DNA from: Nymphaea colorata | Taxonomy: Eukaryota > Streptophyta > Magnoliopsida > Nymphaeales > Nymphaeaceae | DNA length: 64,000 bases | NCBI RefSeq assembly: GCF_008831285.2 | Contig: NC_045150.1 | Location: 62,001-126,000 of the forward strand | Direction of reading: 5' to 3' | In this document: positions 1 through 44,514 of the stretch, piece by piece | Layout: each line of letters starts with the position of its first letter | How positions within the stretch are numbered: the first letter of the stretch is position 1 | The notes under the pieces: generated by a model | The model's database searches: none | What the model was told of the DNA's origin: nothing | The model's input: only the letters and a program-made list of their open reading frames with translations | Made by a program: the position numbers and the translations under genes

Positions 1-758
1 AAAGGACTCGTCACAGAGCCACCAAAACTCAAAACGAAACCTGGCGCGCCTGGTATCAACCCTATCCCGAAGAAGGGAAAGGAGCAGCGAAGCATGATCA
101 GACAAGTGTCTTGGTCCTAAAACCAAGGAGAACAAAGGAAAAACAGAGAACGGCTCAGGCGAGAGGAAGACACAATCCAACCTACGGAGAATGGGAGGAA
201 TCCTATTGTTGGACCAAGTGAACTCACCATTATTCAGAGGCACGTTAAAAGACTGAACTCTTCAATGAACGAGCAAAAAGCAGAAATAAATGGACCAGAA
301 GTGACAAAGGAGGATGAATCAGCTGGGCTAAGCAAACAATTAAAGTCTCGTACCAAAAGTCAAGGCGAATGAGCAAGCTGACGAGCATGATGTAGCTCAG
401 CCCATAGCTGGTCACACAAAGCCCCAACGCAAGGGCCGTAAACCACAGTAACTAAGACCAAACCAATGGGCCAGAGACCACTGAGAGAGGCTGAGATAAA
501 GTACCTACCAACATACACAACAACACCTGTAAGAGGTGGAGACCAAGCCAATAGGATGCCGCCAACGGCCCCATCAGCAGGTAAGAACCTAAAGGACAGA
601 TGACGCAACAAAGTATAAACACAAACATGAGAGATCACAAACAGCTTAGTCTCAACCACGATAAGCATTGAAGGTTCATGTTGACAAACCCAAGAAAAGA
701 GATATCTAGGCTGATAACAAGCACTCAGGCCCCGCACTCTCCAGCATGCAACCCTCAT
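1..758 (-). mobile_element. LINE (L1-type) ORF2, N-terminal endonuclease domain, degraded and cut by window edge
   Basis: Read on the minus strand from 758, the translation opens with MRVACWRVRGLSACYQ and soon shows VVETKL. This is the usual start of the apurinic-type endonuclease of plant L1 LINEs (WN-RGL, then ETK). VVYGP and a short RDFN segment near 340-360 follow. A change of frame near 255 leads into NGEFTWSN, RRLDCVF, then SDHASLLL and FRFEFWW at the window edge, which match the end of the family's endonuclease domain with its catalytic SDH histidine. At least one stop (near 360) and one frameshift break the frame. The usual GDFN has become RDFN. The reverse transcriptase would lie to the left, outside the window. 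The element is old and inactive in this region. Confidence 0.8.
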
Positions 759-1153
759 GGGTAAACCACACGAAGCGACGTACGCCTGGCCATCGTAGCC
801 GCACCGGGAGGGAGGATGGAGGCTGCGGAAGCCCCAATCCTACGCAATTTCCTCCGCAATCTGGCAAGGCTAGAATGGGAGGCAGGCGCAACAGCGACCA
901 CAAAAGAAGAACATAGGAAATCAAGTTTCTCCTGTGGGAGATAGACCTTAAGAGCGGGAAGCACATTTGAAAGAGAAATGCCTAGCTCAACATCTAACAA
1001 GAGAGAGACAGGTGGCAACCCATCGGGCAAGAAGGGACTAACAACAGGTCCAGTGGTGGGACCAGGCAACTGAGTAGGAGAGATAAGAGAGGACAAGGGT
1101 GTGTTACTAGTGGACAAAGAATCAGGACGCAAGGCGGGAGAAGAAGTGTACAC
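755..1153 (-). mobile_element. LINE ORF1 C-terminal fragment overlapping ORF2
   Basis: This minus-strand frame encodes a Ser/Pro-rich stretch and then a basic tail (LARLRRKLRRIG). It stops at a TGA that overlaps the ATG of the endonuclease ORF in the arrangement ATGA. Plant L1 LINEs often have a low-complexity ORF1 tail that runs directly into ORF2, so position and overlap support an ORF1 remnant. I see no intact CCHC zinc knuckle or DUF4283-like core. The open frames from 1154 to about 2500 on both strands are Ser/Pro/Leu-rich low-complexity translations and probably represent decayed ORF1 and 5' leader. Confidence 0.5.
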
Positions 1154-2759
1154 ATAAGGAAGTGGGGGAGGGCAGGGCTAACACTGTGGAGGGGTAGGCA
1201 GGCGGGGTTGCGAGGACAGCCGCGACTAAGTCCAGAAAGCATTACATGAAAGGAAGGCAAGTCGGTGGTAAAGCTACAGCCAAAGGAAACAAAAGGAAAC
1301 CTGAGCAGGTGAGTGAAGGAGAGGGTCCTGGGAGGTAGAGGGGGGCAGTAACAAGGATAAAGAGCAAGGAACAGGCAACAGAGGAGGATGGGCTGACTGG
1401 GGTGATGAAACACTAATGATCAAGACAATAGAGGCCGCAGTCGACAAAGAGCGAGCAACAACTGCAACCTCAAGGGGACGACCCCCAGCAAATGGGCAGA
1501 CAGTTGACTGTGACGGTGCAAAGAACCGGACGTGGCCAAGATCAGACTGAGCAGCAAGCAGCACCGGGTGGGGGCATCCCGAGGTGGACGCGTGCGAACC
1601 CCCACCTCGCAGAGAAGAAAAAGGAAGGGGCAAGCAAGGTACCTCAGGGGAGCACGGTAGAGAGGAGGCAGGACTCTGTGAGGAAGGCGAGTCTGGCTCC
1701 AGTGGTGAGGGAAGCAAGTGCGGGAGCTGTGACGGTGGGAGCTCGGCAAGTGAAGAACACTGGTGCAACAAACCACCTGGGTCGAAGAAGGCAGACCCCG
1801 TGTGCCAGGAAAAGCAGGCCCAGGCCAAGGAAGTCTGATAGAGCCAAAGAAAATAGAGATAGCAACTGAAGAAGGCGACAGAGAAGTACCTGGTAGAGGA
1901 ACTAGAACCCAAAAGGAGGAAGCAACCGCTGCAAAGCCATGCCGCCGACCAAAAAGTCGCGGATCATTCTGACAAGCAGGAAAACAACAGCGAGCATGAT
2001 GGCCTGACGACCGTTCAAGGAAGCACACCTCTGACACCACCACTGGCCCCATCTGACGTGGATAGAAGCGACAGACCGAAGAATGTGATGAAGCTTGGAA
2101 GCACGATGGGAAGAGGGGACACACCAAGGTGAGGGATTGACCTACCGACAGAGATCACCTTGGGGAGTCTCGGCCGCAAGGAACAATCACCCATCTGCAA
2201 AAGGAGAAACCAACAGCGTGCAGGTGGGAGGAATACTTGGAAGAGGCTGCAAGCATCTTGCAGCTGAAACGAGCTGGCAAAGACACAACAGAAGATGGTA
2301 GACTACCAACTGAATGACAACACCAAAGCCTGATGGACCCCCTCAGGCGAGCAAAGAAAACTGATCACATCACGACAAAGCAAGCGATTAAGGGTGGGGA
2401 GGTGGGGGGGGGGGGGGTTACTTGGCTTGATACCACAGAGATTGGTACCACTAACCTAAGCTCACTGGGGTGGTCACAAAGGCGGAGGAGGAGGGAGGGT
2501 GGCCATCACACCAACCCTCTGCACGAACAAAGTGGCCGGTCCAAAGCAACGAAGCCAATCACATGTGTGTGCCCACCCACTGCCAAGGCAGCTGCATCTG
2601 AGCCCGGTTGGCCCCGTAGGCTGGTGAGACACAACTTAGAGCAACGTGAGAGCAAGGCACCGAAAGAGGACCAGTCAGCTAACAAAATGCTCCAAAGGAC
2701 GGTGAGGAGAGCACAAGCTGTAAAAGACATTTCATCGAACAGTTGCCGCATAGCTCCAA

Positions 2760-3095
2760 AGAGGTGAGGAGACGGGAGGTGAGTAGACGGGCGGAAGACC
2801 GAGATGCGCGGCAGGTCAGCAGATGGGAGGTGAGCAGGCAAGCAGGCGAGCAAGTGGGAGGCGGGCGAGCAGGCGGGAGAGTAGGTGAGGAGACGCGCGA
2901 GCGGGTGGGACAGATGGGCGGGAGAGATGGGCGAGAGGAGACGGGCGGGAGAGACGGGCGGGAGGAGTTGGGCAAGAGGAGATAGGCGGGAGAGACGGGC
3001 GGGAGGAGACGGGTGGGAGAGATGGGTGAGGAGACGGGTGAGGAGATGGGCGGGAGGAGACGGGCCGAGAGAAAGAGAGAGAGACGAGAGAGAAA
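2760..3095. repeat. Purine-rich GC minisatellite
   Basis: Imperfect tandem copies of short units such as GGGCGGGAGAGACGG and GGAGACGGGTGGGAGAGA fill this stretch. Almost every base on the plus strand is a purine, broken mainly by CG steps. The open frames over it on both strands (Arg/Gly-rich, or Ser/Pro/His-rich) are products of the repeat and not genes. It sits at the presumed 5' side of the LINE and ends in an AGAGAGA run. Confidence 0.85.
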
Positions 3096-3299
3096 GCCAG
3101 AGATGTGCTAGTACTTTGCTTGTTAGCATGACTCATGCTGCCTAACTGCATTATGTTAAAAAGTAGGGCCACTATTAAATATAGTTAAATATACACAAGG
3201 CAACAGGCTGTCGTTTGGCAACACAACCCAAAATATTGAAACAGATTCATGAAACGTAGCAACGCATACTTATATTACTGTTTCCATAGCTATACCAAT

Positions 3300-3301
<2 letters not shown>

Positions 3302-3370
<69 letters not shown>
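3302..3370. repeat. (TA)n microsatellite
   Basis: An uninterrupted run of about 34 TA dinucleotides. It is likely to be length-polymorphic and prone to forming hairpins. Confidence 0.98.
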
Positions 3371-3373
<3 letters not shown>

Positions 3374-6300
3374 TTTCTGTTTGTCCCTTTCAACTGATAC
3401 CCACCGTCGGAATATAGAACATTGAGCACCCATTTCACAAGTCCATGTTTCATTCGAATCTGGAGCAACATGTATATTGTACCACTGGAGTATGACCGAG
3501 TATTAATATAATCTAGATCTGGGATCCATTATTTTGTATCAGCTACGTATAGTACCAGATCCTTTGGAAGGTGATATGGTATCAGCTCAACCTTGTGGGC
3601 CTGTGGCCCACCATTAATGCAATATAATGTGTCCTATATCTTCATTTGCAAAATCTGACTGAGTCTTCTTCTGTAGTTCAATTCGTACTTGGACAAAACT
3701 GGGTTTCATCCCAACCACTCCTAATTCAAACCATAAATATTTAATGTGGAATTTGCTACCCATGTTTAATCAACTTATGTCCTACAGCTTTAAATCTCGC
3801 AACGTCAGTCGTTCCATCCGATCCAATGGTACAAAATATGGTGACAATTTGAGTACTTGTGTTTTTTTCTTTCGTACTGAAAATATGTTTTACCAGCTGC
3901 CAACGGTTTAATTTGAGTCATTAATTACAAACCTTGATACAACATCTACATCACATTCATGGGATCAGATTGATTTATAAAATAGATTATGCAGAGTGAT
4001 ATATATGTTATTTCATCAGGTTGGGAGAATATTTTTAAACCAGTATATGTATGTATGTATATTATTTCTTCAAAATCAAAATAACTTGTACAAAGGCTAA
4101 TAACTGTGACCTTTCTCTCTTTCATAAGTAAGAAGTAAAAAAATCAAAATTTCGAAAGCAAGGCCAATTTTGGTAGTAAATTGGGAAAATTAGGTTCTTG
4201 GGTATTGTAACATGAAATTTTTTTGGACTTTATTTAGCTGACCAAAAAAATATGGTTGTCACAGATTAGTAAAATTGTGCCTCATGTGTTCACCCTTCAT
4301 GAAATTATATATTAACCTAAAGAGCTGTTTAACAATGGGAATACCATGTGAGTGTAACATAAATAATCTGTCCCAAAAATTGAGGATATTCATGAAATCA
4401 CTTACTAAAATCAGACTGAATTGACCGATTTAAATCTAATCAGATCGTTTTCAATTCGATGGAAGATCTGATTAGAAAGCCTCAAAGAATCGACAGTTTT
4501 TTTTACATTTAGCCATAAATCGACCAATTCTAAGAGAATCTGTCGTTATTTTTATTTATTTATTTATTTTTTTCAATAAGCTGTTCCTAACACCCTTTCT
4601 TGTGGGTGTTATGGCATACTTAAAGGAGGCCAGTGACCTTATATTATAGGCATTTATGACATTAATAAAGGAGTCAGATGTAATAAATAGAGAAGATGAC
4701 TACCCGTTTCAGTGCTTAGTTAAAGCAGGTGACTTTTTTACTGTAGGCATTTTTTCAATCAGCCCCTCCTTTCCTGCTCATGCTTAAACTTGTAGTAACA
4801 CGAGAACATTTGCGTCAGAAAATCTGTAGCTGGGTTATAAAATTGGACGTGCCCACTTCTTGTTCACACATTTTCTTTCTTATTTTCTCAATCATATTCG
4901 TTCAAAGGCATGTTCCTCTCGCTCTCTCTCCTTCATCCTCTCTCTTTCTCTCTCTCTCTCTCTCCCTCAATCTCTTTTTCTCCATGTATTTTATATGCTC
5001 ATTTTTTATTACTTATCTTTATTTTAGATTATATTGCAAAAAAGGTTATGCCAATTGCCACATCAACTATAGATACTAAATTTTGTCGACAGTTCTTTTT
5101 TTATTCTTTTTCTTATTTCCCATTGTTATGAATTTTATTTAGCACTTTTATTATTTATTGGTTTCTTTTTTTGGAATAATCATGAGACCTATAGCGGTGA
5201 AATGGCTATAGGTCGCTTGCTTTTAATGGCACAACGGTCGGATCAATGAAAAGCTTTTTCACGGACGCAAACATTCCATCAGTAAAACTGTTACAGTTTT
5301 AGTGACGGATTCTTGCACCAGTAAAAACGACAAATATAAAATGTCAAAATCAATTTTCAGTGACATTTATTCTTTCGTGTCACTAAAAGGTTAATTTTTA
5401 TTAACATAATGTCAGAATGTTAGTAAAAGTATCAATGACACTATTTTTACTAACGGTAATGGTAAAACATTAGTAAAACCTTCTGTGGTTTTTTGCTTAT
5501 TTTTATTGATATTTTTTTTGCGTCGATCAAAACTTTTTTTTTTGGGCAGTGTTCATATACCTTGGTTAGCAGAGCCAAAGGGTAAAAATTGGCCACTTTC
5601 TTGAATACCTGGGAATCGTTGAAGGTGCATATTCCCATGTTATATTTAATCTATTAGTTTCTCATGTTTTGATAGAAAAAAATATATATTTCCAACAAGA
5701 GGGGCAGGGTATCAGAGAATGACGATAAAAAAATAAAAAATGGGGGCAAGAGCATTTCCCTTGTCAAACATGATCGAAGTATTTTTCTATTAAAATATTA
5801 TTATTAAGGTATTGTTATTAGGTTAATATATTGACTATTATTGATTATTGTTATTATTGTGTAAAGTGGGAAATATCATTATTTTACAAATTAAAATAAA
5901 AATATATATTTTAATTAATCCAATTCACAAAAACTTGTGATTTCAATTTGATTTAGCCAATTCACTCGATGATAAGCTTTCTGATTCTACTCAAAAACCA
6001 ATTTTGATAACATTACGTAGAACACGTTGTTATATTGATGATGAAATACTCACAAGGCATTCCTAAAAAATAAATATGACAGAAAATATGTGATTAACTG
6101 AAAAGTTAGGCGGAAAAATTAAAGAAAAGGAAACTGCGGTTACTCAGCTTTTACCTCATGTATACGACTTCTCCAGACATAGATATGTTGGATCCATTAT
6201 TATTTAAAAATTAATTTTCAAAAAAAGCTAAACCACGGTTACATAACATTTCATTAACAAAGCTCATGCATGTAGATTCTCAGCTCAGTCTTGTTTGTGT

Positions 6301-7060
6301 TTATGTTTATGTTGAGCTCAACTTAACCCTTTTTTAACTTTTTATGTTTATGTAACTTTAACCTTTCTTTTTTTGCTTACTTGAATTTTGTCGTTCCTTT
6401 GGCAATACAACACACTGGTAATATGGGTATACTACTTTTATTTTTCAAAATTAATTTAAAATATTTAAGTTACTTTGAAATAAAAAGTCTAATATATAAG
6501 CAAACAAAAACATGCACGAGTAGTCATGCGAGAGGTCATGCATATCAACTGATATGTCATGTCATTAAGCAAACTGATATAAACTATTAAAATGTTAAAA
6601 ATAACGTTAAAGCATTACAAAAAATATCAAAACTTTATGAAAAAATTATTTGTGCCTGATGAGTACGGATGTGCGCGCATCAAACACAAACTGTGAGAGA
6701 TGATGCACATGATGCGTGATGCGTGCGCTTCTAATAACATTTGCAGCAACATATGTCTTATAGCTCTTCTAACCTTATAGTTATCTTCACCAACGTGATG
6801 GAATGATAGATTATTTACCAATAGAGCTTGTTCCTTTTTTATTTTTTTTCCTTTTTACGATGAAAAAATGAAGGCTTGATTTATGGGGCACATCATTTTC
6901 GAAAAACTACAATGGATGGCAATTGTCAATTCTACAGATTAAAAGGTGACTAACAAAAATGAAGAAGATAACGAAAGCCCAACAAAGGAAGGCCATCCAC
7001 TCATTGTCTCCCCGTCTCTCTCTCTATCTCGTTCTCTTTGTTTTTCTATATAAGGCTCTT
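3371..7060. other. AT-rich intergenic DNA without a recognisable gene
   Basis: No coding exon was recognised. It contains a CT-rich tract near 4917-4970, several homopolymer T/A runs, and a stretch near 5250-5490 with repeated TTAGTAAAA and GTCACTAAAA-type motifs in both orientations. That stretch could be the subterminal repeats of a non-autonomous DNA transposon. The short open frames here lack family motifs. Confidence 0.6.
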
Positions 7061-7419
7061 CAATATCGTGGTTCTTCCTTCAGATTAACTTCGACCAGTT
7101 TTTGAACCGTGAGTTCTCCAAGGAAGGGCGATTGATTTTTAAGGAGTCAAGGCAGAACAATTTCTTCACGATCAATATTGCTGGGCTGGTAAGGCAAGGT
7201 AACTGCTCCATTTCTCATCTTCAACAATTTTAGGTTACACAATTCACTATTTCATTTTGAAGTGATATAGTGTAGTGTCATTGTTGGGTGAGTAGGAAGA
7301 ATATTTTATATGGTCACCCAACAAGAGAACTGAAGCCCCTGCCCTTACCATTCAAAGCTGTGTCAATGCTTGCACTGACATCTTGGTTTCATGATTTCAT
7401 GAAGATACCAAACTTTTCT

Positions 7420-7725
7420 CCCGAGATGCATAGCACAATATCTTGGCTCTCGCCTAGATGAAGAACGTAGCGAAATGCAATACTTGGTGTGAATTGCAGA
7501 ATCCCACAAAACATCGAGTTTTTGAACGCAAGTTGCATCCAAGGCCCTTCGGCCAAGGGCATGTCTGCCTGGGCATCACGCTATGCATCGCCCCTCTCCA
7601 TACTCTTGTGTTTTCGAAATGGCCAAGGAAGAGCGATGGATTCGCCTTCCCCAAGTTTCAATGACATCGTAGGTTGAAACATTTGGCTTACAATTTGTTT
7701 TGATCGCACAACAAGCGGTGGATTT
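7420..7725 (+). pseudogene. 5.8S rRNA plus ITS2 fragment, decayed
   Basis: The run GATGAAGAACGTAGCGAAAT followed by ACTTGGTGTGAATTGCAG, CATCGAGT and TTTGAACGCAAGTTG is the conserved core of plant 5.8S rRNA. The 5.8S part ends near 7582 at CTGCCTGGGCATCACGC. An ITS2-like stretch follows and ends with ACAACAAGCGGTGGAT at about 7725. No 18S or 26S sequence flanks it, so this is a dispersed fragment and not part of an rDNA array. Many differences from the usual plant sequence are CG to CA or TG changes (for example AATGCAATAC where the standard is AATGCGATAC). This is the pattern left by deamination of methylated cytosine. The small open frames here are chance translations. Confidence 0.88.
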
Positions 7726-9317
7726 CCCATAGCTGATCGAACTGGTAGGCTGCTGAAAGTCCCGCCTTTAATTCAATCTTCATAACCACTACTCTGCTAA
7801 ACCAGCAGCGGAGATACATGGCGGCTGATGTGGGAAGGGAAAAAGTTTGAGTTTTATTGGAAGGGTCATAATCACATTGTGGTGACTCAATAATTAGATA
7901 GGATGCCTAAAAGGGAAAAAGGAATGGACTTTGGCGTCAAAGGGAAAGAACTAGGAAGGGTTTTTCACCTCCTCATAGTATTTTCCACATTACATCAAAT
8001 TCTTGATATATTTTTTTCCACATTACACTTTGATGTATACATTTTTCTTCATCTTTCACTCAAGGGTCGAGAGTTTTCATTACTATTGATGCTGATGTAA
8101 CGTGTGCAGACGGGGAACAGCCTGTTCCGCGTCCTGTGCGATGGCGCGTTTGCGAGAGCCTGCAGTCCCCATACAATACCAACTTCTGTCCACTTGCAGC
8201 CTGTCTTTGTCTTTGACAGCGCAGGCCGAAGGTATCTTTTGTCCTTCACATGGCCGTCCAACCTCAAAAGGACGGCCTGCCTAATTAAGTGCGCCACCAC
8301 TTCATTTTTGCGGATCTCGTGCAAAATATAATCCAAACCGTTTTGGACGGGGCTTTGCTGACCCGAACCTTAATCGCATATTGGTATTTTGAAAACAATA
8401 CGAACGTGCCCAGGAATATAATGAATATTAAAAGAAAAGTTTAAAATGGGATCAGATCTTGGACCAGATTTAAAGTAAATAAAGTTTGATTTTATTTTGC
8501 TAGGGTTGTGAGTACATTGAGGTTTTTGATATATGATGGATTTATATATTTCATTAAAAATGTTATATTCGAAAGAATAAGGAAGAGTATTTTTTTTCTT
8601 GACAAATTGATGAAGATAGTGTTAACTTGTTTATGGATTGGATCTGACATGATCCATTTAAATCAATTCACGCAGTCACCGATCAACTGATTGTGGGGTT
8701 CCTGTACAGGTTTTTAGTGGGGGCCAACTTCTTATTTTTTGAAAATTTTACTGGGCAGAACTAATAAAAAAAAATCATACGTAAATTTGAAAATTTCGAA
8801 ACTTGAGGAAGGGCCATGGCCCCTGCCAGCCCTCCCTTCCCTTCACCCTGGTTGGAGCAGATATATAGTCACTGTCATCTATAAAGTGTACATTTTTCTT
8901 TGTCATCTGCCTAGGGAGTCCAATGAGTTTTCATTAAGAGTGGTGCTCATGAGAATTGAAGCCTCACCATCTGTCCAGCAATCAGGGACCAACTTTTCGC
9001 TACACTAATCTCTTGGTTTTGATAAGTTCATTTCATATTGTAGTGCCAGCACTAGACCTAGGTCTGTGACCGAAGGGCCCTTCAGCCAAAAAACTCCTAG
9101 CTCTAACACTAGCACTGAAAAAAGAAAGAAAGCCTCCTTGACTCAAAAACACTTGGAAAGCTTTGCTTTCGCTGGGGTCAGATTGGCAGGAACAAGCATG
9201 ATTACCCTACCATATACTTCATGGGAAGAAGTGGTATTCCGTGTTGGGCACAACCCTTCCTTTCATATAGTATCAATACACACTCGTGCAGTGCGCAGGT
9301 CCTAGTGGACAAGGTCA
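7726..9317. other. Intergenic DNA, no confident gene
   Basis: A GC-richer island at 8105-8340 follows a splice-acceptor-like GTGCAG and translates for about 75 codons without a stop (reading TGNSLFRVLCDG), but I recognise no family. A second possible exon fragment lies upstream at 7084-7192 (NFDQFLNREFSKEGR, ending at a GTAAGG donor). The two could be leftovers of one gene. Nothing else here supports a gene. Confidence 0.4.
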
Positions 9318-9724
9318 TAGGCGGCATTTGATAGCCTTAATTGTGATTCTATAATTAAAATTCTACATATAATATTCCACCTCAGACTGGAATTAGAATA
9401 AAAATTCCAATTCTATTTTCTCTTTGCGTTTGATAGTGTGGAATTTTTATTCCAAATTTTGACAATGATGTGCGTGATTGATAAACAGGAATTAGAGTTC
9501 TATAATTGATCAATTAAAACCATGTGTCCTAAAGAGAGATGAAAAAATTCTAAAATTCTGGAATCATCATAATTCCACCAACCTAGGATAGAAACTCAAT
9601 TCGGGAATTTTGATTCAAGAATGAACCTATAATCACTAAAACAAAATTCTTTGTTTGATACTGTTAAATTTATCAAAAATTAATTATAGAATTCCACAAT
9701 TCCAGTCTCATCAAACACCTCTTA
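9318..9724. mobile_element. MITE-like inverted-repeat element
   Basis: The left end (TAGGCGGCATTTGATAG, continuing to about 9365) is the imperfect reverse complement of the right end (about 9675-9724, CATCAAACACCTCTTA). The arms are about 50 bp and share the ATTCTATAATTAA core. The element is about 407 bp, AT-rich and without coding capacity, as expected for a miniature DNA transposon with hAT-like GGTGTTTGATG ends. No clear target-site duplication was seen. It ends only 40 bp before the first coding exon of the CPA-synthase pseudogene. Confidence 0.7.
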
Positions 9725-9764
9725 AATAAAGAAATTGCTACATGGTTTTGCAGGTGAAACAAAG

Positions 9765-12700
9765 ATGAGGGTTGCGGTGATTGGTGGGGGAGTGAGTGGC
9801 CTGGTTTCAGCTTATATCTTGGCCAAGGCCGGAGTTCACGTGGTTCTCTATGAAAAAGAAGCTCACTTGGGTGGCCATGCTCAGACCGTCCATGTCAATG
9901 GTGTCGATTTGGACCTTGGATTTATGGTGTTCAATGGAGTATGAAATATTGAACCTATACATGTCTCCTTCTTGTTCTTATTCTTCTGCTTATAAACAAG
10001 CATAAAGTTAGTGTTGTAATTCATTTCCACTCGAACTGTATTGAAATATGTAAAAAAAGTAGATTAGGTCAAAATGGGTATAGTAAAAAGGAAAAAAAAA
10101 AGCAACACCATATCGTAGTTGTTTACATTCCTATATGCGTTTCACACACACATTATATATGTTGATTTTAGGTGCACTAGTCACTTGCGTTAGATAATTA
10201 ACACGTAAAAAATTTTTCCTAAACTCTCAATTTTATTGCAGATTTTTCTTGGATTTGACAAGAAAATGAATCATGCCAACAATCGCTGTCTGTTTCGTTA
10301 GGTGGTTGAACTTAAGACTTAGCAGTCAAGGTTCAAGAGTCAAATACCAATAATTTTTAGGTAAAACAGTGCATGGGTTGCATCCCTTGGTATTGGAGTC
10401 TGATGTCCCAGGAGCAAAAGCTCTCCTTGCCTTCTTTTTCCTAGGGCTGTTTCGGTACCTGGGCCGGAGACAATACACCCCATCAACTAGAGTGCTATTG
10501 TTCTCACTATTTACAGTCCGGAGGAATAATGCCCAAAAAATCGAACTGTTGACAGGAATTTCACCAGCTAGCCATCTCTTTGAACAAGCATAAGTATAAC
10601 TTTCAGATAAATTAATTCATATACAACCTTATTTTCTAGTGATCATGGTAATGAAATTGACTTAATGTTTGTGTTCAGGTCACGTATCCCAATATGATGG
10701 AGCTTTTCGAAAACCTTGGAGTTATTGTGCAAAGAAGCGACATGTCCTTCTCAGTGAGTTTGGATGAAGGTAGGACCTGTGAGTGGGGGAGTAGGAATGG
10801 GCTGTCCAGCCTTTTGCCCAGAAGAAAAATGCCTTTAGACCTTCCTTCTATCGAATGCTCCGAGAGATAATCAAATTCAAAAGTGACGTCTTGAGGTAGA
10901 CTTCGAAATCAATGGATGGGTTTTTCTCAATGAAAAAATCCCTGTTACTCTTAAATTGGCACCAGTTTAGGTCTCATACTTGTGGATGAAATTACTTTTG
11001 GCCAATTTATTGTAAATAAAAAACAATGGCATGTTTGAATTAGGATATGAAGTAATCTCTTTCTTCTTCTCCTTATTAAGCGATAGGTTGTAGGTAAACT
11101 GAGATTATGCATATATCTCACTCAACATTCTTGACTGACTCGAAACAATGTTAAAATCATTCGACATAAGAATGTGATTAAACTAGCAAATTTAACAATA
11201 GAGGAACCTTGAAGTCCTATGGTTGATGATGAACCCCAAGATGAACCCGGACTGGAAGTGCATATAAATGGAGAATTTCTCCACATCTGCATTTTGTTCC
11301 CTAGACCTTTCATACCAAAAATCATAATAAATTGGGCAACGGAAAATACTACCTTGAAAGAACCATAAATTTCCAACTGGACACTAGTGTCCCAATTGTG
11401 ATAACATGCAGTGGAAGACCACATGTCAGCAGACCCCACAAACCAAAGTAGTTCACAACCAACAAGATGAACAATGTTCACCTAAGAGTTATTTTTTCAA
11501 CTAGCTAATAGACAAGCAAACAATTGATGATCACCAAAACAGAATAGCAAACCTCAAAAACAATTTCTCCCAATGACTATATCCGAACATGACACAACCA
11601 GTAGAACCATCAACTTGTTCAGATTTTATTTACCAAAAAAATTGAGTAAAGACATTGAAAAATGAAAATCAAGCAGCTAATTCAAAATCTATCGTTAAAG
11701 TGAATCGCATGGCCAACTAGTTCAAGAGTCCTGGAAAGCAAGCTGTAGGACAACTCTGGAAAGTGGAATATAAGCTAATCTCGTAAAGAAGATGACAAAT
11801 CTCTCAAGAAGAATGAAAGCAATAAGAAACACTAGTTGGTTGAAGTGGTACTAAATCAAAGAAGGCACTTGCTTTTGCAGCTACCTTGAGCAACATGAGA
11901 ACAACCTTGACCTTGATCGCAGTGAGACACTTGGACAGTTCATCAAGTCACTGGGTTACTCTGATGCATTTCGGGACCATTATTTTGTAAGTCTTGACCA
12001 ACCCATTCACCTCCATTTTATCTTACTTCATCTTGCATTGACAACCATAACTTGAATCCAACTGTTGAATCATGAAAAAGATGTGCTTGGGCTGCAGATC
12101 CCGATGTGTTCCTCAGTTTGGTCGTGCTCCTCTGAACAAATGCTCAACTGCTCTGCTTACTGTGTGCTCTCATTCTGCCGAAACCATCATGCCCTTCAAG
12201 TGCCTGTAACCTCCTCATTCATAAATTTTTTGCTTCACTTATATGGGTGGAGAAGGAAGGAAACGAGACCCTTGTCAGAAGGCTGCAAATGAAGCACATT
12301 TAGGATAAGAAAATTTATTACATATCAGATGGACTTGGCTTCATCCCACACTAGCCTATCAAAAATTTCATTGAAATGAAGTTGGACATGACATCTTTCC
12401 ACATGCAGTGTCGTCACTAGACCCAAATTGGTGACTCAAGTGCCCCTTAGCAAAACAAAAAAAACAAAAAAGTCCTATCTCCATTGATCTTTGGTGCTTT
12501 CAATTTTAAAAAATCTTCAGACCAATAGCAATCTTCCTACCAAGTAAGCAAATTTCTTTTCTTTTTCTTTAAATGAACCTTGTATTTTTTGAGGCACCTG
12601 AATGCAGCCCACATGATAGTTTAAGTTGAAGACTTGAAGTTTTCCGATTGAATGGTGGTAGGGATCGCTCTCTATCAAGACAACCAACATGGTCAATGGT

Positions 12701-15700
12701 TCACCGAAACTCCAAAATTCGGTTGCCAGAAATGGCAGTCCAAGGCTACCATTCTTTCCTTGGAGCAGTTGCAAAAGAATAATCACAATTTGCAAGAGTT
12801 GTGGGTATTATTTGTTTGAGACCATAATAAAGCTAGGACTCGTCCTTCAAACACTTGATGAGGAAGGTCGAATCAATACTATTGTTGCAGTATGGGAATG
12901 AAAAGGTCGAGTAGAAGTCTCTTCATTGTTGAATTAGTAATTGTTTCCCTTTTCTCATCTTTGTGTTTGCTTTTTGGCTTTCTGTTGTATAATTTATCTT
13001 CAAAAATCAGCTCCTATTTACACATGTTCTCCTTGTAGGATATGGTTTCCATGAAGATGGGCTGAAGGTAAATATTGTTGTATACAAATCTCCAAGAATG
13101 CTGAATTGGTAATGTACAAAAATAATCTTAGAAAAGGTCATGCTCATCCCTTTTGAAGTAGCCATCAAAGTTCAATCCTCAAATGCAATATCTGACCTTT
13201 AGTGGCTATACTTTGTCTATGGTTCATAGACGTTGACAAATTCTCGTGTATAGAATGCTTCTTTTCTTACCAATTCAGTTTTTATTTAGTTTATTCATAT
13301 TTACATTGTTGTTTTCTTTCTATAGGCTGGAAAGGTTGCAGCAAAAGGCTTATTGGGATCAAAATGTGTTCTTCTGGATGAGAGAAAAAGTATGACACAT
13401 TCCGTAATGGCCAGGGGAGCAAGCTTATTGTCACTAGATTCTTGCAAAGTTATGTTTCAACAGGTTACTTGAGGCAAGTTCCCTCTAGGATGTTCCTCAA
13501 TTCCTACATTGTGTAAAACGTATACTTGTATCTCTTAATAGCTGATTTGTTTTCACAAAATGCTATTATGGACATTGTAGCTAATTTTGTTTTCACAAAA
13601 GGCTATTATGGACATTGTACAATTGGGACAACAGAAAGCAAAAAAAAAATGAAATGGATAGAGGACGAAGAGGAGGGCCTGAAATCTGGTTTTGATTTCA
13701 AGTTGAATTGATTCAAGTAGAAGCAAAGATGAGTATAAAAGTTCTTTTCTTCTTCTGAAAAGAACGTAAGAGATTCATAAAAGCTGAATACCAAGTATGC
13801 AAAATCACAAAGATGGTATTCCAATTGACATGAAACCTTTGCATAAAAGATATGGCAAAATACAATTAAAATTCGTAAAACTTGGCTATCTAAATAACAA
13901 ATGGAATACAAGCATAAAAGATGCTCATTACACAAAAATAAAAAGATGAAATGATTATTAAATTTGTTTTGTAAAACCTGCAGCTTGCTAGAGGAAGGTG
14001 GCATATTGTTTGAATTTTGTGGGGCAAATAATAAAGATGGCCTCAAATCTGTGATGAAAATTCACTCTCCTTTGTATTATTGGAAGGTATGTAACTTATA
14101 ATCTAATTATAGTCCTTTATTTTTATCAAAATAGACATTTCTTTGGTGTCTGATCACATCTTCATTGTGCACTTGCAACATTAATTTGGCATATTAGCCT
14201 TATTTTGTCATAAGATCTTCTTTAATGTAGGTTGCCATAGAGGCTGATCTAGGGCTTGCTGTTGCATATATAAGTGGTTATATATCTTTTATGGACAAAG
14301 GAGAAGGCCTTCTAAACCTTTTTTTGGTGATCACTACTTTCATCATTACACATTTAGTAATAGAAGTTTAGCTTTTTTTGGTGTGTAATAATAATTTGGT
14401 TATCTGTTTTGTAGATACTCATTGATGGTAGGAATAAACGTAACATTTCTATAAATTGCATGAATCAAGGGTAACATCTGGCTCACTACTATCTTGTGTA
14501 ATCATAGACTAGTGCTCTACTTGGACAACCTTCTGACAAACAAAAATGTTTGATATGATAGGGGTTGGTGGAAACCAATAATTTTAACTGCAGGACTTGC
14601 ATCTGCAAAGTTTTTCTTTCAGCATCTTTCACGACGGAATACAGTCACACAAGCTCAGAGAAACATTGCCTCTCATTATGATATGGTCTTTACTTTCTAC
14701 TCCTTCTTTTGCTTGATGTATTCGATATGAAAGTATATTTTTTCCATTGTGCCCGGCCGGTCACAAAAGGTTTCTATGTTGAATAGAATAAGTTTATGGT
14801 TGCCTTCTATTTTTTGTTGCATCAGTCACTATGCCTTACTTCCATTGGTCCATTTCATCCATCTGAATGGAACACATGTATGTCTCTCAAGAATTGCCTC
14901 AAATGGTTTGCATGTATGTCACATTAAAATGTGATGGCTTACCATAACCTATTTTTTCGTTAAGAATAATAAAAAAGCCATTTGGTTATCTTATCGGTAC
15001 ATTTTCCTTTCCCTGATTGAAAGTTGACACTTCCTTTTACCTTCTGTTTTAGAGCAATGAATTTTTTTTCGCTATTCTTGGATGAAACTATGACATATTC
15101 TTGTGCAATTTTCAAGGTTTGTATGGTTTCATCTTCCATAAATAGCTTAAAGACATGAATATATATGTGCATGCTTGTCAAAGGCTTTAGTTTGCTTTTG
15201 CCATTTTCTACTTATGTTGTAGGGAGAGAATGAAGATCTCAAAATTGCACAGATGAGAAAAATTTCCCTTTTGATCGCAAAGGTGAATTACTTTCCTACA
15301 AGGTCTTATAATCTGGAACATTTTGTGATGTTTCTAGTTATGGTTGATGTGCAGGCAAGGATTACCAACAACCATGAAGTTCTTGAGATTGGCTGTGGTT
15401 GGGGAAGCCTCGCACTGGAAGTTGTCAAGCAAATCGGATGTAGATATACTGGAATTATGCTATCAGAAGAGCAACTAAAATATGCCCAAGAAAAGGTTAA
15501 AGAAGCTGGTTTAGAAGTAAGCCATTACTGTTGGGCTTCATCTCATTAAATTTTCATCTAGCCATATTTACAAACATTGTTTAAATTTAATTATACTCAA
15601 CCACATACACTCTTCTTAATCAAACATTGTGTTCTTGCTTACTTATATATGTGGTCGTTGATGGATAATAGTTGGAAATGCTAACTATTGAAGTTGACCA

Positions 15701-16083
15701 AATAGTACAATGTCATGGCCCATTTGTGCACAAAGTTGTTGTACCATTTGATTGCTTTTTATTTTGCTCATCGTCATGGTTAGCTTTGAATTGGTATTAA
15801 GAATGGATTCATCATAGTACTTGCTGAAGTTATAAAGTTACTCAACATGTTACTGTTGTGCTAGGAACCTCTTGATGTATAGGCATGTTCAATTAAAGAT
15901 CAAAGTGTGTATTTTAGTTTCTTTTCAATGTTGCACACCTTCTTCATTGATAACAGTCATAACTCATAAATTTACTAGAACATGTTCATCCAACACTTGT
16001 ATCTTTTATGTTTTGGATACCCACCATTCCAGCTGGTGGATTTTTACTCCAATTTGGAAATGGAATGTGCATACTTGTTAAGT

Positions 16084-16119
<36 letters not shown>

Positions 16120-18103
16120 TTTTTGCAAATACATGGCATAAACTCCACATAGGCTTTATTATAATAATTATATCAAAATTCAGCCACTTACAAGACAAAG
16201 GCACAAAACTAGATTTGTGGGAACATATTTCATGTTATGAACTTCTTGCAATTTGTATCAACAGGACCACATTAAACTTCTTTTGTGCGACTACCGCCAA
16301 CTGCCAAAGTTTCAGAAGTATGATAGGATAATATCTTGGTAAGTCATTGTTTGCTTAGGAGCTAGATGTAAAAGGTGATCTGATCATGTTACAATCTTGT
16401 CACTTTCTCATATTTAAACAGTGGGATGCTAGAAGTTGTTGGGCATGAATGCATGGGAGAGTTCTTTGGCTGCTGCGAGTCCTTATTGACTGAAGATCGA
16501 ATTTTTGTTCTTCAGGTTTTACAAATATTTCTACTTTATTTCTTTTATTACCTTCCTTTTTGTTTTATAATATGTTTCATATTACAACATACAAGAAGTC
16601 ATTATCTTGACACCTGACGGGGAAAACTAAAACCAGTTAAGTTCCTAAGCGACTAACTAAGCAGGCCTAGATGGCTCGTGCCTGTTTACTTTTTCTATTT
16701 AGCATTTTAGTGTTTTAAAGTTCTAAAACAAGGTTTTCAGCTATCTTGTGTAGTTTGCTAAATTGCATTAAAATATTATAGGTGAGTGAGAAGTTAACAA
16801 CCCACAGCTTGGAAAAGAGTATTGATTCCACGGCCCCCAACCAAACACCTCTAGGGTCCTAGGCTATGTTTGCATTAGTAATGACAGCAATGCACTCTTC
16901 AACTTAGTACCGAGGCTCCACTTAGGCATAGTGCCCACATATCCAGTTTCAAAAACTACATGTGCCTCATGAGACTAATTGCTTTTAATTTTTAAGTTAA
17001 CCATTTAACATTTAGTTTTATGCATCTCCAGCTTCACAACTACCTATGCATCTCCAGCTTCGAGATCCTTTAGGGCCATATGGCAAAGAGAATGGTTTTA
17101 ACTATTCCATAAATATGCTCTAAAGATTGGGGCAGATTCCTTAAATATTTGAACAAATATTTGGCATGTTCATGAAAATAGTTATAAGCTTTTCTCATTG
17201 TCAAAAGGCACCTTATGCTGTTCAATCCTGCCTAAGCATGTGATAGTCATTTTGGAGACCTTGCACCTAAAAAGTGACTATTGCTTTTGATGATCACCTC
17301 TATGGCCAACCCTTGGGATTAATAGTATTATTTGCTTTTGAAGCTGCCAAATCTTGTTTTTAATGTTTATATATCTTCATGTTGGCATATGTGTATTTGT
17401 ATGTGCACACATACAATGGCAATTGAGGTGTATAATGGCATGAGCTTGATTCGACGTCCAAAGTTCATTGCTTTGTCTTTGTATCAACCAAAATTACTTT
17501 CTTTTGAATCTGGCTTTAGATCTGATAATGAGCCACTCTTAAATAAACGTGTTTATGAGAGACTATAGTGTGTGCACTTATGTACAGTAGAAGAAACATG
17601 CAAACAAATTATCATGTCTAGGTTAAATAAAATCTTTCTTCATCCATATATGAGCCCAACCCTTCCTCTTGTCATGTTATGCTTAATCATGTGGTTCTGA
17701 ACCTTTGGCCTTAGATTTTGATTTCTATCTCTGACACAAGGGTCCATGTGGAGGCCTACATGGTTCCACCAAACCACTTATCCTAGTGAAGTTCAAAGGT
17801 TACATCACGGGCAAACAGTCTTCCCAAGTCCATGTGTTGTGACAACTATGGCTTCAAAATGAAGTTGGAGTCATATTTTGCTCATAGAAACCAGAATAAT
17901 GTGTCTGCGAAGGCATATAAAAGCCACAAACATGTGCCTATGAAAGTATATGTTAATTGTTTAAATTCAATTTATTAAGTTTCTGATTAGCAATTTTAAG
18001 TACTGACATGAGATGAGATGACATGTTGGTGTAGGTTGTGTTGTCTCGGCCTGGTAACTTGAGTGCCTTCAGTAACCCCTACGAGTGCATGCCTGCTTCT
18101 TGA
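9765..18103 (+). pseudogene. Cyclopropane-fatty-acid synthase (FAD oxidase-CFA methyltransferase fusion), broken copy
   Basis: The plant enzyme transfers a methylene group from S-adenosylmethionine to an unsaturated acyl chain of a phospholipid. It carries an N-terminal amine-oxidase-like FAD domain. Exon remnants, placed by homology and splice sites: 9765-9938 (MRVAVIGGGVSGLVSAY, FAD fold, ATG in good context after an acceptor-like TTTTGCAG), 10679-10895, 11881-11986, 12098-12199, 13039-13067 (GYGFHEDGLK), 13326-13473, 13984-14086, 14231-14326, 14415-14470, 14562-14685, 15053-15116, 15223-15282, 15355-15516 (SAM motif VLEIGCGWGSLA), 16265-16338, 16422-16515 (MLEVVGHE), 18035-18103 (SRPGN to stop). 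Splice phases agree throughout. Single-base frameshifts occur in exons 2, 6 and 11. The exons for the second half of the FAD domain (expected between 12200 and 13038) and for the C-terminal catalytic region (16516-18034) were not found. A functional product is therefore unlikely. Sequencing error could explain a homopolymer shift but not the missing exons. Confidence 0.88.
16085..16117. repeat. (AG)n microsatellite in a pseudogene intron
   Basis: A perfect AG dinucleotide run lies between the SAM-motif exon and the following exon of the CPA-synthase pseudogene. Confidence 0.97.
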
Positions 18104-18979
18104 GCTTCCTTGACAATCTAAAATAGATATTGTCTGCCTCTATATGGTGAGTCATCTCCTGTACTTGAGCGTGAAGATTGTTGTAAAGGTTCACCTTCTC
18201 TATGATCTGCACACAAACTTGAAGCCATATTTATTGTTGTAGATTGCAACTTGTTTATGGGTTTCTCTAGACTCTGGCTTTTCCAAGCATCCAATAATAA
18301 AATAACCATATTTATTGTTAGATTTGCTTATCTCCCTGTTTGAGGAGACCGCAAGTCATAATTCGATATTGTATCTCAAAACGATGGTTTCATGATCAAC
18401 CAGATTATGTTTACAAAAGCTACGCACCTTAGGAAGACTCGATTTAGATGTTCTGGCCTCTCTTGACAGCCTCACCTGAAAAAGGAATCTGATCTACTGG
18501 CCCTCAATTTAGTTGGAAATCCAAATAGGATCCAAACCCAAACCTAAATTAACCATCAGGCTTTGAGCAAATCTGATTAACTTAGTGACGATTGGTGTAT
18601 CGAAGGGCAAATCATATATGACACTGGTATTGATATTTACAACATTGATTTTATTCATGATCTCCAACGTCCATTCTCATAAGGTGCATGGGAAGATTGC
18701 GACAAACATGATCGGTTGAAGATTGTGTCCTAAAAAGATCATTGTAAAAGAGAACATTGACCTTGTGATGTTCGTTGCCATGCATGGTGCATTTGCATCG
18801 AATAATTTATTTTCACATACTGGCATTTCGAGGAAAGTTCTGGTCGAGGGTTACAATTTTTGAGGCATTTATATCTAAAAGTATTTATCACATATAAATG
18901 TAAGGAGTCAGCGACTCACATTTTTGAGATTATTTGATAATTGAGAACACTCAGACTATTCCACACTAACCAGAGTAGT
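18104..18979. other. Intergenic DNA downstream of the CPA-synthase pseudogene
   Basis: No gene was recognised. The first few hundred bases would be the 3' flank of the broken gene. The 63-codon open frame on the minus strand at 18118-18309 has no family motif. Confidence 0.5.
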
Positions 18980-26086: not shown

Positions 26087-26755
26087 TCAACGCACAAGGT
26101 CGACGAGGATCTTCCTCCGGGGGAACCTGGGCGGCAGCCTAAGATTCATGGCATCCTCCATCTCGATGGGAAGGTGAGTGGCGACGAAGACGATGCCCCC
26201 CTTCTTCCGGTGGTCAGCGATCATGGCCTCAAGGAGTTTGACACCGTCGTAGTCGAGGGCGACGGAGGGCTCATCCATGAGCCAGATCGGGCGGTCAATG
26301 GCCAGCATGCGGGCCAACTGGAGGCGCTTGCGCTGTCCCATCGAGAGGATGCGGGCCTTCTCGTGGACGAGGCGGCCGAGGCCCATGAACTCCAGGGCAG
26401 GGAGGGAGCGAAGGCCATCCTTTTTCTCGAGCACCTCGAACCATTGAACATTGTCGAGGACGGTGAGGTCTTCCTTGATCGCGTCCTTGAGGGAGAGCCA
26501 GTTGAGCTGCAGACGCCACTGGGCAGCGACGCCTGCGGAGGTAACGTCGTGGCCATCCCATAGGATGCGCCCCGCCGATGGCCGTGAGAACCCGGCCAGC
26601 ATGCGGAGGAAGGTGGATTTGCCTGCACCATTGCTGCCCGTCAGCACGAGTGCCCCGCCGTCGTGCACGGAAACGTTGATGTCGCGGAGCACCACTTGGG
26701 CGTTGCGCATGCACGAGACGTTGTGTAAAGCCACCCTCGGAAGCGGAGGCGGCAT
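26087..26755 (-). CDS. ABCI1: ABC transporter I family member 1, CcmA-type ATPase for mitochondrial cytochrome c maturation
   Basis: This 222-residue protein is the length usual for plant CcmA homologues (ABCI1). CcmA is the ATP-hydrolysing subunit that works with membrane protein CcmB in the mitochondrial inner membrane to release haem for apocytochrome c. It is a single ABC ATPase domain. Visible parts are Walker A GSNGAGKST at residues 40-48, the Q-loop glutamine at 83 (LQLNW), the signature LSMGQRKR at 137-144, Walker B IWLMDEP at 157-163, the D-loop VALD and the H-loop histidine at 194 (THLP). NVSCMRNAQ near the start and AMNLRLPPRFPR near the end are typical of this family. There is no membrane segment. 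The coding region is uninterrupted and much more GC-rich than its surroundings. The ATG at 26755 gives the family's usual N-terminus, and a stop follows DLVR. Confidence 0.95.
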   Translation of the reverse strand: MPPPLPRVALHNVSCMRNAQVVLRDINVSVHDGGALVLTGSNGAGKSTFLRMLAGFSRPSAGRILWDGHDVTSAGVAAQWRLQLNWLSLKDAIKEDLTVLDNVQWFEVLEKKDGLRSLPALEFMGLGRLVHEKARILSMGQRKRLQLARMLAIDRPIWLMDEPSVALDYDGVKLLEAMIADHRKKGGIVFVATHLPIEMEDAMNLRLPPRFPRRKILVDLVR

Positions 26756-27455
26756 GCTCTCTCCCCCTCTCTCTGATACGCTCTCTTCTGTGACGAATCT
26801 TGCACTCTCACCCTTCCATGCCGATGCAGGATATGTGTTCAGCCCAGAACTAAAAAAAGATAGAACTCAGAACGGGTGAAAATGCTCCTGGAGATTGGCA
26901 AGAATGAAGAGATGAAGAGAGTCAGTCTTTTCTATATGAAGATTAAAACGCCCCAACACAGGAATACCATCAGCTATCTCTGGTCTACATGCCTAAAAAA
27001 CGTGTATAAACGTATATACAAATGACACACAATAGTGATCCATCAGGTATTACAGCTCAATAAAGAACAGTTCTTTCAAAAGCATTCAAATCAAACATGT
27101 AGTTCAAGATAACATATTAGACCATCTTTCTTAACATTTGCTGTGACATTGTAGGGCAAATTAAAAAAAAAAAAAAAAGAACTGCATGAGAAAAACGATA
27201 AATTTAGAATTTAGCGGAAGCATAAAGGACAATATTGTTTAATTAATTCTGCAAGCAAAATGCATAAAATTAGGTGAGGAAGAATCTATTTTTCAAGTTA
27301 GATAATTTGCATCCAAAATGGAATGGGACAGGTTACGGATGACTGAAGATAGCAGCATAGTGAAGATTGAACAACAAGAGGAGAAGAATAGAACAGCTTA
27401 CGGATGACTAAGAATCTGGATTTCTGGACGAAGAATGAGAGTGTCTAGAGCCTAA

Positions 27456-33808: not shown

Positions 33809-36800
33809 ATGGAGGAGAATCACCGGTTGATCCAGTGGGGAGTCATCAGACCGCTGCTCGCGATTGTCCAATGGTGGACGTTCAACGTCACCGTTATCAT
33901 CACGAACAAATGGATCTTTCAGGTTCATCTCTTTCGCTTTCTCGTTAACTCTTGTTGTTTTTACTTTATCCGAGTCCTTGGGAAAAAAATCATGATAAAT
34001 CTGAGAAATGGGGAGGTTCTGAAACTTCAAAATCAAAATTGGCATGAATTCTTCTCTTACCCTCCTCCGGTCCTCGATCTCTATCAATGAATTCAACACA
34101 CGTATTCTAGCCATTACACTGACAAACTCGAGTTCTCGACTATAATTCGGTCGCTTTTTCTTAGCAACTTGCAGTTATCATCATCTTCTCACGATCATCT
34201 GTCTTGTACGTTCAATTTCACTTCTAGGATTCTCATCCTGAAAGTAGATAAATAAAAATCAGAAAGAGGGTTGGCAGTAGCGTTTCTATTTGATTGCTTT
34301 TCTTTTTCATTTGCTTGTCTCCTCTGCGTGGGGGAATACTGCATGAAGCAGTGAGCCTTAGACATGTCATCCATCAAATCACAGCAACAGAACTCTAAGC
34401 ATGTCATAACAAACTAGCTCGTACGTTGTATTTGGTCCTATTGGTTGGAAAAAGGAAGCATCCTTTTTCGTGAACGTACCAGTTTGCTTACTCTATCGGC
34501 ATAAAAAGGACGAAGAAGTCGAAGCAAACCGTCTCTTTCCTTCCTAAAAATCACTTTGCTGCTCCCTGTTTGCTTCCCACTTTCCAGCATCTCGTTCTCG
34601 GTTATCGTGTCATTCTTGAAAATTATTCGCTTCTCTGCTTCTGCTTCACGTATCGTCCGTTCTAGCTCATCATGTCATTCTTCAAAGCCTCTGCTTCTAC
34701 TTCACGTATCGCTTCGCATATTTCTTTCATTTGCTGCAATATTGGATGGTACATGAAAATCAGTAGTGGAAGGCTATGATTCTGTGAATTGAGAATAGAG
34801 GGCATCTGTTATACTAAATATCTTTTTTCTAAAAACGTAGAGATCATAGCTGGAAGGACCTGGTTTGAGATTGACGGATCTCGAAAAGTTAATCTGGTTT
34901 GTTTGTCCAGATCCAAGTTAAGGAAGCATCTTCTTTGGTATTAAAACAAGTATAGCATACGTGATAAACTCCAACGCTTTCTCATTTTTCGAGTAGTTGG
35001 CGGTATTTGGCATGACAAGGGAAGGATATTAGCCTATGCACTGTAAAATACTGTTAGCCATTTGACAAAGTGAATGTAAATAGTTGGCCAGTTTTATTTA
35101 TGCTAATGGTTGTGACCTTTTAGTTTATTAGCAACCGGATAAACTAGTGGGAGATGGTTTACAATGCTATGAAATTTAATAAACTGATGTATGTAAAATT
35201 TGTGATTCTGCAACTATGAGCCTGTCTTGATAAATAAAGGTTCTTCATTTTCTCGAGAAGAAAGACATGCTCTTTACACATCGAGCTGCTTTTCTTTCAG
35301 CACTTTTCAGAAGCTTAAGTATTTGTTGTAGGATGTTTATATATTATTTTCCTGGATCTCTAGAGATAATATTAATATTCACGATAAAAAGGTTGTTGGT
35401 TTCTTGTATTACTAGAGCATAGGCATATTTAAATGCTCTTTGTATATGTGTATCTGATACAATCTAGTCTGTGCAGAAATTGGATTTCAAGTTTCCCCTG
35501 TCTGTGTCATGTCTCCATTTTATATGCTCATCCATTGGATCATATTTGGCAATCAAAGTTTTTAAGGTAAAACCTTTAATTGAGATTGAACCTGAAGACC
35601 GTTGGAGAAGGATATTTCCCATGTCGTTCGTCTTCTGCATCAATATAGTGCTGGGAAACATGAGCCTAAGATATATTCCAGTTTCTTTTATGCAGACGAT
35701 TAAGTCATTCACCCCTGCTACTACAGGTTAGTTGAGGTCTCCTATTTCTGTTGTTTTATCTTGGCTTATCATGACTGAGCTCTTTATGTCAATAACATAT
35801 AGATGCTGCATTAAGCAGTTGTACTCCAGTGGCTGGTGTGGAAAAAGTACTTTGACTGGCGAATTTGGTGTTCCTTGGTGCCCATTATTGGGGGCGTTCT
35901 TCTTACTTCTGTTACGGAGCTAAGTTTCAATATGTTTGGATTTTCTGCTGCACTTTTTGGCTGCCTTGCTACATCTACAAAGACAATTTTAGCGGAATCA
36001 TTACTGCATGGCTTTAAATTTGACAGGTGCGTATTTTCTTCTGCAATAATATTTGTCAAGAATTTTGAACTTGCCTGTATCCTTCATGTAGCAGTCCTTT
36101 TTGGGTGTAAAAAGGGCAATGAAGAGGGTTGAGCCTTCCTGATTCTTCTCTTTCTTGCACCTGGAACTGTTGATTGATATGTCAGAAAGAATTATACGTT
36201 CACTGTGTGCCACATGCATATATATATGCGATTGCTGCTCCATCTTTTCTGTTTGTTATTCAATTAACATTTGCATAACGAATGCAGTAAATCCAATCTA
36301 AAGCACTATAATTGACTCATGCACCAAACAAATTTGCAGTAATAAGAATGGAACAAGACAAATAAGTGGATGGAAAAGGATTGGGAAAATTGGCCTCCAC
36401 ATAGGACTGGTCCAATTTCGGACAAATTGGATGCCAGTCTGCCCGTTGACGACATCCATGGTTTTGGCCATTCTCATGTTGCTGGTGCTGCATTCATGTC
36501 TGGCCTTGTGAAGACAAATACAGCTGCCGACATGTCCTTTTCACATAGTTGCCATTTGGAATTTTTACTCAATTCTCTACCTCACACACTTAGATGCAAA
36601 GAGGAAATAGAATTTCTATTGTCATGTTGTACACTAACATGTAATTAAATTTTCACTACTTCCAGCTTGTACATGATCCATAATTCATAGACAAATGTGG
36701 AACCTAAGAGTTTGGCTTATGAAATTTAAATTTACAACAAGTATATCAATTAGCTAAGAAGAACGTGCAAGGCTTTCTGTTAATCCAGTGAATGCTCATA

Positions 36801-44094: not shown

Positions 44095-44514
44095 AACACT
44101 TTGATGCTCTGCCACCAATGCATTGTGTAAGTGCACTAGCAATTCGGCAATCAGATTTGAGTTTGCCACAATAGTTATACCATTTTGAAAATATCTACGA
44201 CCTCTTTCTATTGTATATGTAAGTTCCAACCTGATTGATGGCAAGATCCTTTCTAATTTCTTGGACAGTTTAGGATGACCTATGTTCTTTTTTAATTGAT
44301 TCTCAGCACCTTGATGGTCTGCCACTAATGAATTGTGCAAGTGCACTAGCAATTAGGCAATCAGGTTTGAGTTTGCTACAATGGTTATACCATTTTGAAA
44401 ATATCAGCACGACTCCTTTCAATTGTATCTGTAAGTTTCGGCCTGATTGCTGACCAGGTCCTTTCTAATTTCATAGATAGTCTTTTTTCTAATTGATTCT
44501 TAAAGATTAGCTAT
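44095..44514. repeat. 210-bp tandem duplication inside the gypsy relic
   Basis: The sequence GTGCACTAGCAATT occurs at 44131 and again at 44341. The sequence on both sides continues to match (CAATCAG-TTTGAGTTTGC, TGGTTATACCATTTTGAAAATATC) at a constant 210-base offset. Read on the minus strand, it duplicates the histidine-containing LLVHLHN block. Confidence 0.85.

Follow-up and report, generated by a model that had tools for sequence, protein, structure and literature searches.

The gene remnant at 9765-18103 of the 64-kb stretch of DNA analysed here (the window, C13:62001-126000) belongs to a FAD-oxidase/cyclopropane-synthase (CPS-type) fusion gene and is probably an unprocessed composite pseudogene. 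In this remnant, copy B, the 5' half of an old paralogue would have been replaced by that of a copy resembling two relatives, A and C, through ectopic recombination, C-terminal exons would have been deleted, and the upstream region and exon 1 would later have been exchanged with copy A. Read from the sequence, the features that argue for this are the missing exons, three segments of apparently different age, a break within intron 1 at which the copies stay in register, and an apparently intact paralogue, copy E, elsewhere in the genome.

Results

Structure of the gene remnant

The exons of copy B were placed by translation and splice borders, and 16 of them were found in order on the + strand (Table 1). 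All 15 internal acceptors are AG and all 15 donors are GT or GC, the single GC following exon 6. The start codon is intact, as are exon 1 and the splice sites, and exon 16 has a stop codon of its own, 6 bases earlier than in copy E. A preliminary description of the window had proposed an unprocessed copy with sixteen ordered exon remnants and matching splice phases, and this holds, with 15 introns retained; a processed copy was rejected given the presence of introns.

The translated exons were compared with Pfam, and in the N-terminal FAD/oxidase domain NAD_binding_8 was complete (4.7e-19) and Amino_oxidase was matched at positions 1-177 of 443 only (1.1e-15), while the C-terminal CMAS domain of the same gene was incomplete (positions 4-169 of 273, 1.3e-49). 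The translation also matched the sequence of a solved bacterial cyclopropane synthase (7e-39). As sequence likenesses, these domain and structure-sequence matches are far beyond chance; the name cyclopropane synthase is used here as a family label from homology only, for a putative enzyme. Both B and E have the SAM-binding motif VLEIGCGWG. Homologues on bacterial plasmids (268 records) were all below 60% identity, with 28-34% among the 20 matches listed, and are too distant to inform on copy B.

Eight of the 24 exons of copy E are missing from copy B, namely F1-F5 of the FAD part and C1-C3 of the C-terminal part, in agreement with the earlier proposal that the exons for the second half of the FAD domain and for the C-terminal catalytic region were lost. 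These exons were sought in the 64 kb as peptides from A and from E, and no tblastn match below E = 0.1 was obtained (best 0.12); two exons that are present served as controls and gave 4e-23 and 3e-30 with the A queries and 6e-23 and 1e-28 with the E queries. With the missing exons as DNA, 2 of 16 queries hit short stretches well away from the gene, one of 22 bp at 39316 (E = 0.020) and one of 14 bp at 23535 (E = 0.079), and both were taken as chance. At the sensitivity used, the peptide and DNA searches ruled out a location of the missing exons elsewhere in the window.

Relative to copy E, exons 2, 6 and 11 have length changes of -1, -1 and +1, as the preliminary description had noted, with the exon 6 change at about 13420-13424 instead of near 13430; the remaining exons keep the frame. 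No other copy in which the respective exon was seen has the same length change. Copy D has eight T in exon 11 as in B, yet is in frame. Two of the three indels lie in T-runs, and the three could in part be sequence errors. The exon losses are independent of whether the indels are real.

Table 1. Coordinates of the exons and segments of copy B, of its joins and of the six copies of the fusion gene. Positions are those of the window unless a contig (C12, C13) is named; A: denotes positions in copy A.
Feature	Position	Strand	Observation
Exon 1, FAD-binding start of oxidase domain	9765..9938	+	0 differences to copy A at 173 shared sites; A lacks one base here
Exon 2, 1 base short (T-run 10812-10815)	10679..10895	+	Translation, splice borders, length compared with E
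Exon 3	11881..11986	+	Translation, splice borders, length compared with E
Exon 4, followed by absence of F1-F5 of E	12098..12199	+	Comparison with E
Exon 5 (numbering of remnants)	13039..13067	+	Comparison with E
Exon 6, 1 base short near 13422; GC donor	13326..13473	+	Translation, splice borders, length compared with E
Exon 7	13984..14086	+	Comparison with E
Exon 8	14231..14326	+	Comparison with E
Exon 9	14415..14470	+	Comparison with E
Exon 10	14562..14685	+	Comparison with E
Exon 11, 1 base long (T8 at 15062-15069)	15053..15116	+	Comparison with E and other copies
Exon 12	15223..15282	+	Comparison with E
Exon 13, SAM-binding motif	15355..15516	+	Translation, splice borders, comparison with E
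Exon 14	16265..16338	+	Comparison with E
Exon 15, followed by absence of C1-C3 of E	16422..16515	+	Comparison with E
Exon 16 with stop codon	18035..18103	+	Translation, splice borders, length compared with E
Segment I	1..10393		99.1% (blastn) to C13:4388-14781; within a 14.8-kb block beginning at the contig's first base
Segment II	10565..12930		About 4.4% from both A and C
Segment III	12931..18900		17.7% from A, 17.8% from C; A and C differ by 3.8%
Join, young 5' part / old 3' part	12916..12931		5' side about 96% to A:17780-17929; 3' side matches A from 22443; A:17930-22442 (with F1-F5) skipped
Second gap in B relative to A	17679..17715		A:27112-28177, holding C1-C3 (27597-28103), has no counterpart in B
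Copy A	C13:14154-28513	+	24 exons; one base missing in exon 1, one in exon 9
Copy B	9765-18103	+	16 exons; lacks F1-F5 and C1-C3; three indels
Copy C	C13:3800833-3786666	-	24 exons; one nonsense codon in exon 3
Copy D	C12:19235823-19257333	+	24 exons; one base missing in exon 11
Copy E	C12:19269390-19282455	+	All 24 exons and their splice sites present; frame open over 866 residues
Copy F	C13:3741628-3733968 (part seen)	-	Exons E1 to F5 (nine in all), F5 lacking five bases; a run of 100 N follows at 3733610-3733709

Relatives elsewhere in the genome

The genome (407,766,735 bases in 783 contigs) was searched with the CMAS and Amino_oxidase families, which were found at no fewer than 13 and 45 places, respectively, both numbers being lower bounds. 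Five of the 13 CMAS places are this gene (A-E); the remaining eight are other methyltransferase genes, whose match to exon 13 reaches only 28-38% identity. Among the 45 Amino_oxidase places, the comparison covered the five that were assigned, namely the first exons of B, C, D, E and F. The fusion gene is thus present at at least six loci (A-F), five besides the window copy, with D and E forming a tandem pair, and further partial copies may exist. A pattern scan of the genome contigs for relatives gave 55 matches, none of which was confirmed.

Only copy E, one of the five copies seen in full, reads as intact, with CMAS complete (4-272 of 273) and Amino_oxidase matched at 1-260 of 443. The preliminary description had left a choice between loss of cyclopropane lipid synthesis and a functional paralogue elsewhere and had proposed a genome search for the latter. 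Copy E, with its predicted protein of 866 residues, is a candidate for that paralogue, whereas loss of the pathway is not supported. The exons of copy D are 89-100% identical to those of E (exon 1 100%, exon 2 99.1%). Copies A, C and D carry one or two small lesions each, and calling them dead would be premature.

Copy F is 99.59% identical to A over 8,311 columns and ends beside a run of 100 N, the usual length of a scaffold gap. The exon 1 indel of A is absent from this near-identical twin, which suggests that some of the small lesions among the copies may be errors or allelic. Since F tracks A and runs past the join in B, the idea that F is a second copy of B was rejected.

Conflicting relationships along the gene

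The blastn identity of B to A decreases stepwise along the window, from 99.1% at 1-10393 to 96.7% at 10565-11111, 94.4% at 11173-12930 and 77.3% at 12916-17679. Copies A, B and C were compared in a three-way alignment using gap-free columns only, and segment I was counted over 4000-10393, with window positions 1-3999 left out. The differences for the pairs A-B, A-C and B-C were 0.61, 7.51 and 7.81% in segment I (n = 6018), 4.28, 4.47 and 4.47% in segment II (10565-12929, n = 2056) and 17.73, 3.77 and 17.80% in segment III (12931-18900, n = 5540). The ratio of B-unique to C-unique sites shifted significantly both between segments I and II (Fisher, p = 1.5e-21) and between segments II and III (p = 1.6e-21). 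The trees conflict as well, with A pairing with B in exon 1 and with C in exons 5-16, each at a bootstrap of 100; the tree of exons 2-4 alone was unresolved (bootstrap 65). Such conflicting relationships among segments of a single copy, as judged from these alignments, indicate exchange between paralogues.

Segment I itself is patchy, with 17 of the 26 B-unique sites located within 6912-8085 and the identity between A and C ranging over about 88-98% when taken in windows of 400 columns, which suggests a history of more than one exchange. Over approximately the first 3.1 kb of the window, copy C has no homology.

Joins between the segments

At the break in intron 1 (10393/10565) the copies remain in register, which points to homologous exchange. 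At the join at about 12930, B is out of register and skips 4.5 kb of A, where F1-F5 are located (A:18304-21821). The two blastn matches that meet there overlap by 15 bases of imperfect likeness, and a maximum chi-square scan gave 12875/12877 as the best-scoring break, about 55 bases from this join. The loss of the second half of the FAD domain thus coincides with the switch between paralogues of apparently different age. Given that the join is out of register with a short imperfect overlap, a single event is indistinguishable here from a conversion followed by a deletion.

An assembly artefact, in which B would fuse parts of two loci or haplotypes and sequence errors would account for the indels, is unlikely. 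It would fit with the 14.8-kb block at 99.1% that begins at the first base of the contig, with the end of F at 100 N, with the two indels in T-runs and with the exon 1 indel of A that F does not have. However, C13:1-136000 contains no N, which places A and B on a single gapless stretch, none of the copies found (A-F) carries the old half in another context, and the two breaks are at different places. At the contig start and at the gap beside F there is scope for assembly or haplotype effects, and a haplotype duplication is accordingly possible for A and F, but it would not account for the 18%-diverged half of B.

Also improbable, and more so, is a simple decay in which one duplicate suffered two internal deletions and point indels with no exchange between paralogues. 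The exons in order, in a single orientation and with splice sites kept, are what such decay would leave, but B stands closest to A at one end of the gene and apart from both A and C at the other, and one history cannot yield 0.6%, 4.3% and 17.7% for the same copy. The preliminary description of a decayed gene was right as to a pseudogene and overlooked that it probably combines paralogous segments that differ in age; this composite origin is not visible from the window alone.

Past constraint on the 3' half

In segment III, B differed from A at 10.6% of exon sites (114/1077) and at 19.7% of noncoding sites (895/4540), a significant difference (p = 2e-13). Substitutions in exons 5-16 were assigned to branches by simple counts of few changes, with gap-holding codons left out, and give an order only and no dates: the B branch had 29 nonsynonymous and 23 synonymous changes, compared with 837:228 for neutral sites (p = 2.5e-4), and the A/C stem had 9 nonsynonymous and 22 synonymous changes (Fisher against B, p = 0.023), so that the ratio on the B branch falls between neutral and that of the A/C stem. 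No stop codon had arisen by substitution on the B branch in exons 5-16. Together, the site counts and the lack of such a stop indicated that purifying selection appears to have acted on the old half of B during most of its history, with a late relaxation.

Discussion

The composite history that we prefer would begin with an old, long-constrained paralogue whose 5' half was swapped by ectopic recombination for that of a younger A/C-like copy, with the join in the intron after exon 4 and the five FAD exons left out. A separate deletion would have removed the three C-terminal exons, and a later re-exchange between B and its neighbour A would have involved the upstream region and exon 1. The break in intron 1 could stem from gene conversion or from unequal crossover, and the join at 12930 from end-joining or from a conversion combined with a deletion. 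As with this order and these mechanisms, we infer that B makes no working enzyme, and any function of the family in the plant would fall to E. That B is still expressed, as a shortened product or a regulatory RNA, is very improbable, given that an intact start codon, an intact exon 1 and intact splice sites are set against a frameshift already in exon 2 as assembled, the absence of half of the FAD domain and of the end of the CMAS domain, and the finding in a cotton study that partial loss of the oxidase domain of GhCPS1 lowered the product more than its complete removal (PMC3132707).

The same oxidase-then-CPS fusion is found in plant CPS with an N-terminal oxidase domain, for which that study names cotton GhCPS1-3, Sterculia SfCPS and five Arabidopsis homologues (PMC3132707). 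The cotton proteins have 865-873 residues, compared with 866 predicted for E. In contrast to intact fusions, 8 of the 24 exons are absent from B, which also contains indels. In the same source, GhCPS1 and 2 make cyclopropane fatty acids, whereas in yeast, tobacco cells and Arabidopsis seed none could be detected with GhCPS3, which clusters with the five Arabidopsis genes and has the motif ILEIGCGWG. The likeness of VLEIGCGWG in B and E to this motif may be regarded as a lead and not as a classification.

With unprocessed (duplicated) pseudogenes in general, B shares retained introns, disabling lesions and an apparently intact relative in the genome; it differs in being a probable composite with parts from copies of different age. 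Gene conversion or unequal exchange in plant multigene families, as described for rice (PMC2277409), resembles B in tracts at odds with the rest of the gene and in the in-register break in intron 1; B departs from it at 12930, where the register is not kept and five exons are lost. Within a narrow set of search wordings, no report of a plant CPS pseudogene was found in the literature. The kind of object, an unprocessed pseudogene, is ordinary; its recombination history is unusually legible.

Given the presence of an apparently complete paralogue there is no ground for claiming that the plant lost cyclopropane-type lipid synthesis, and this type of fusion gene may not make cyclopropane lipids at all. 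A pseudogene read alone can mislead, as the "missing exons" here would mark a recombination join, and the copies A to F, with three apparent age layers within one gene, may serve as a small-scale natural archive of paralogue exchange. It is possible, although we put it forward tentatively and short of calling it probable, that B once existed as a distinct CPS paralogue, maintained over a long time, and that recombination with a younger copy was the main cause of its death; a single ectopic join would have both swapped the 5' half and removed the FAD exons, and the small lesions would have arisen later. If this is true, the locus would document, step by step, how a gene died through exchange with a paralogue in an actively recombining family.

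A repeated block on the window's own contig

Comparison of the sequence of contig C13, from which the window is taken, revealed two copies of a 14.8-kb block that are 99.1% identical (C13:1-14781 and C13:57591-72393) and spaced 57.6 kb apart. The first copy starts at base 1 of the contig and the second takes in window positions 1-10393. G-rich tandem repeats with periods of 12-41 bases were observed within the duplicated block at window positions 2761-3072.

Other copies of the fusion gene

The exons of D and E, the tandem copies of the FAD-oxidase/CPS fusion gene on contig C12, are 89-100% identical; exon 11 of D is one base short and E is predicted from its sequence to be intact. Copy F on C13 is interrupted by a run of 100 Ns (C13:3733610-3733709) and is 99.59% identical to copy A on the same contig. 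F may have arisen by recent duplication of A, or it may represent another haplotype of A. Among the genome matches listed, the top-scoring match to the C-terminal CMAS domain (C6:4434998-4435246) had an identity of just 38% to exon 13, the exon with the SAM-binding motif, and is a different methyltransferase gene outside the fusion family.

Neighbouring genes

The ORF with the ABC-transporter domain presumably resembles a CcmA-type protein, and the integrase domain is likely a retrotransposon remnant. The Pfam search gave zero matches for the ORF at window positions 54941-55636, which we would guess to be part of the SPO22/ZIP4-type gene.

Features in the window and on contig C12
Feature	Location	Strand	Pfam evidence
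ABC-transporter ATPase domain, 259-residue ORF	window 26087-26866	-	7e-28
Triose-phosphate-transporter family gene, fragment	window 35815-36132	+	6e-16
Integrase zinc-binding domain	window 43933-44352	-	6e-14
Meiosis protein SPO22/ZIP4-type gene	window 48171-55636	+	8e-22 (SPO22), from ORF 48171-49886
FAD-oxidase/CPS fusion gene, tandem pair D/E	C12:19235823-19282455
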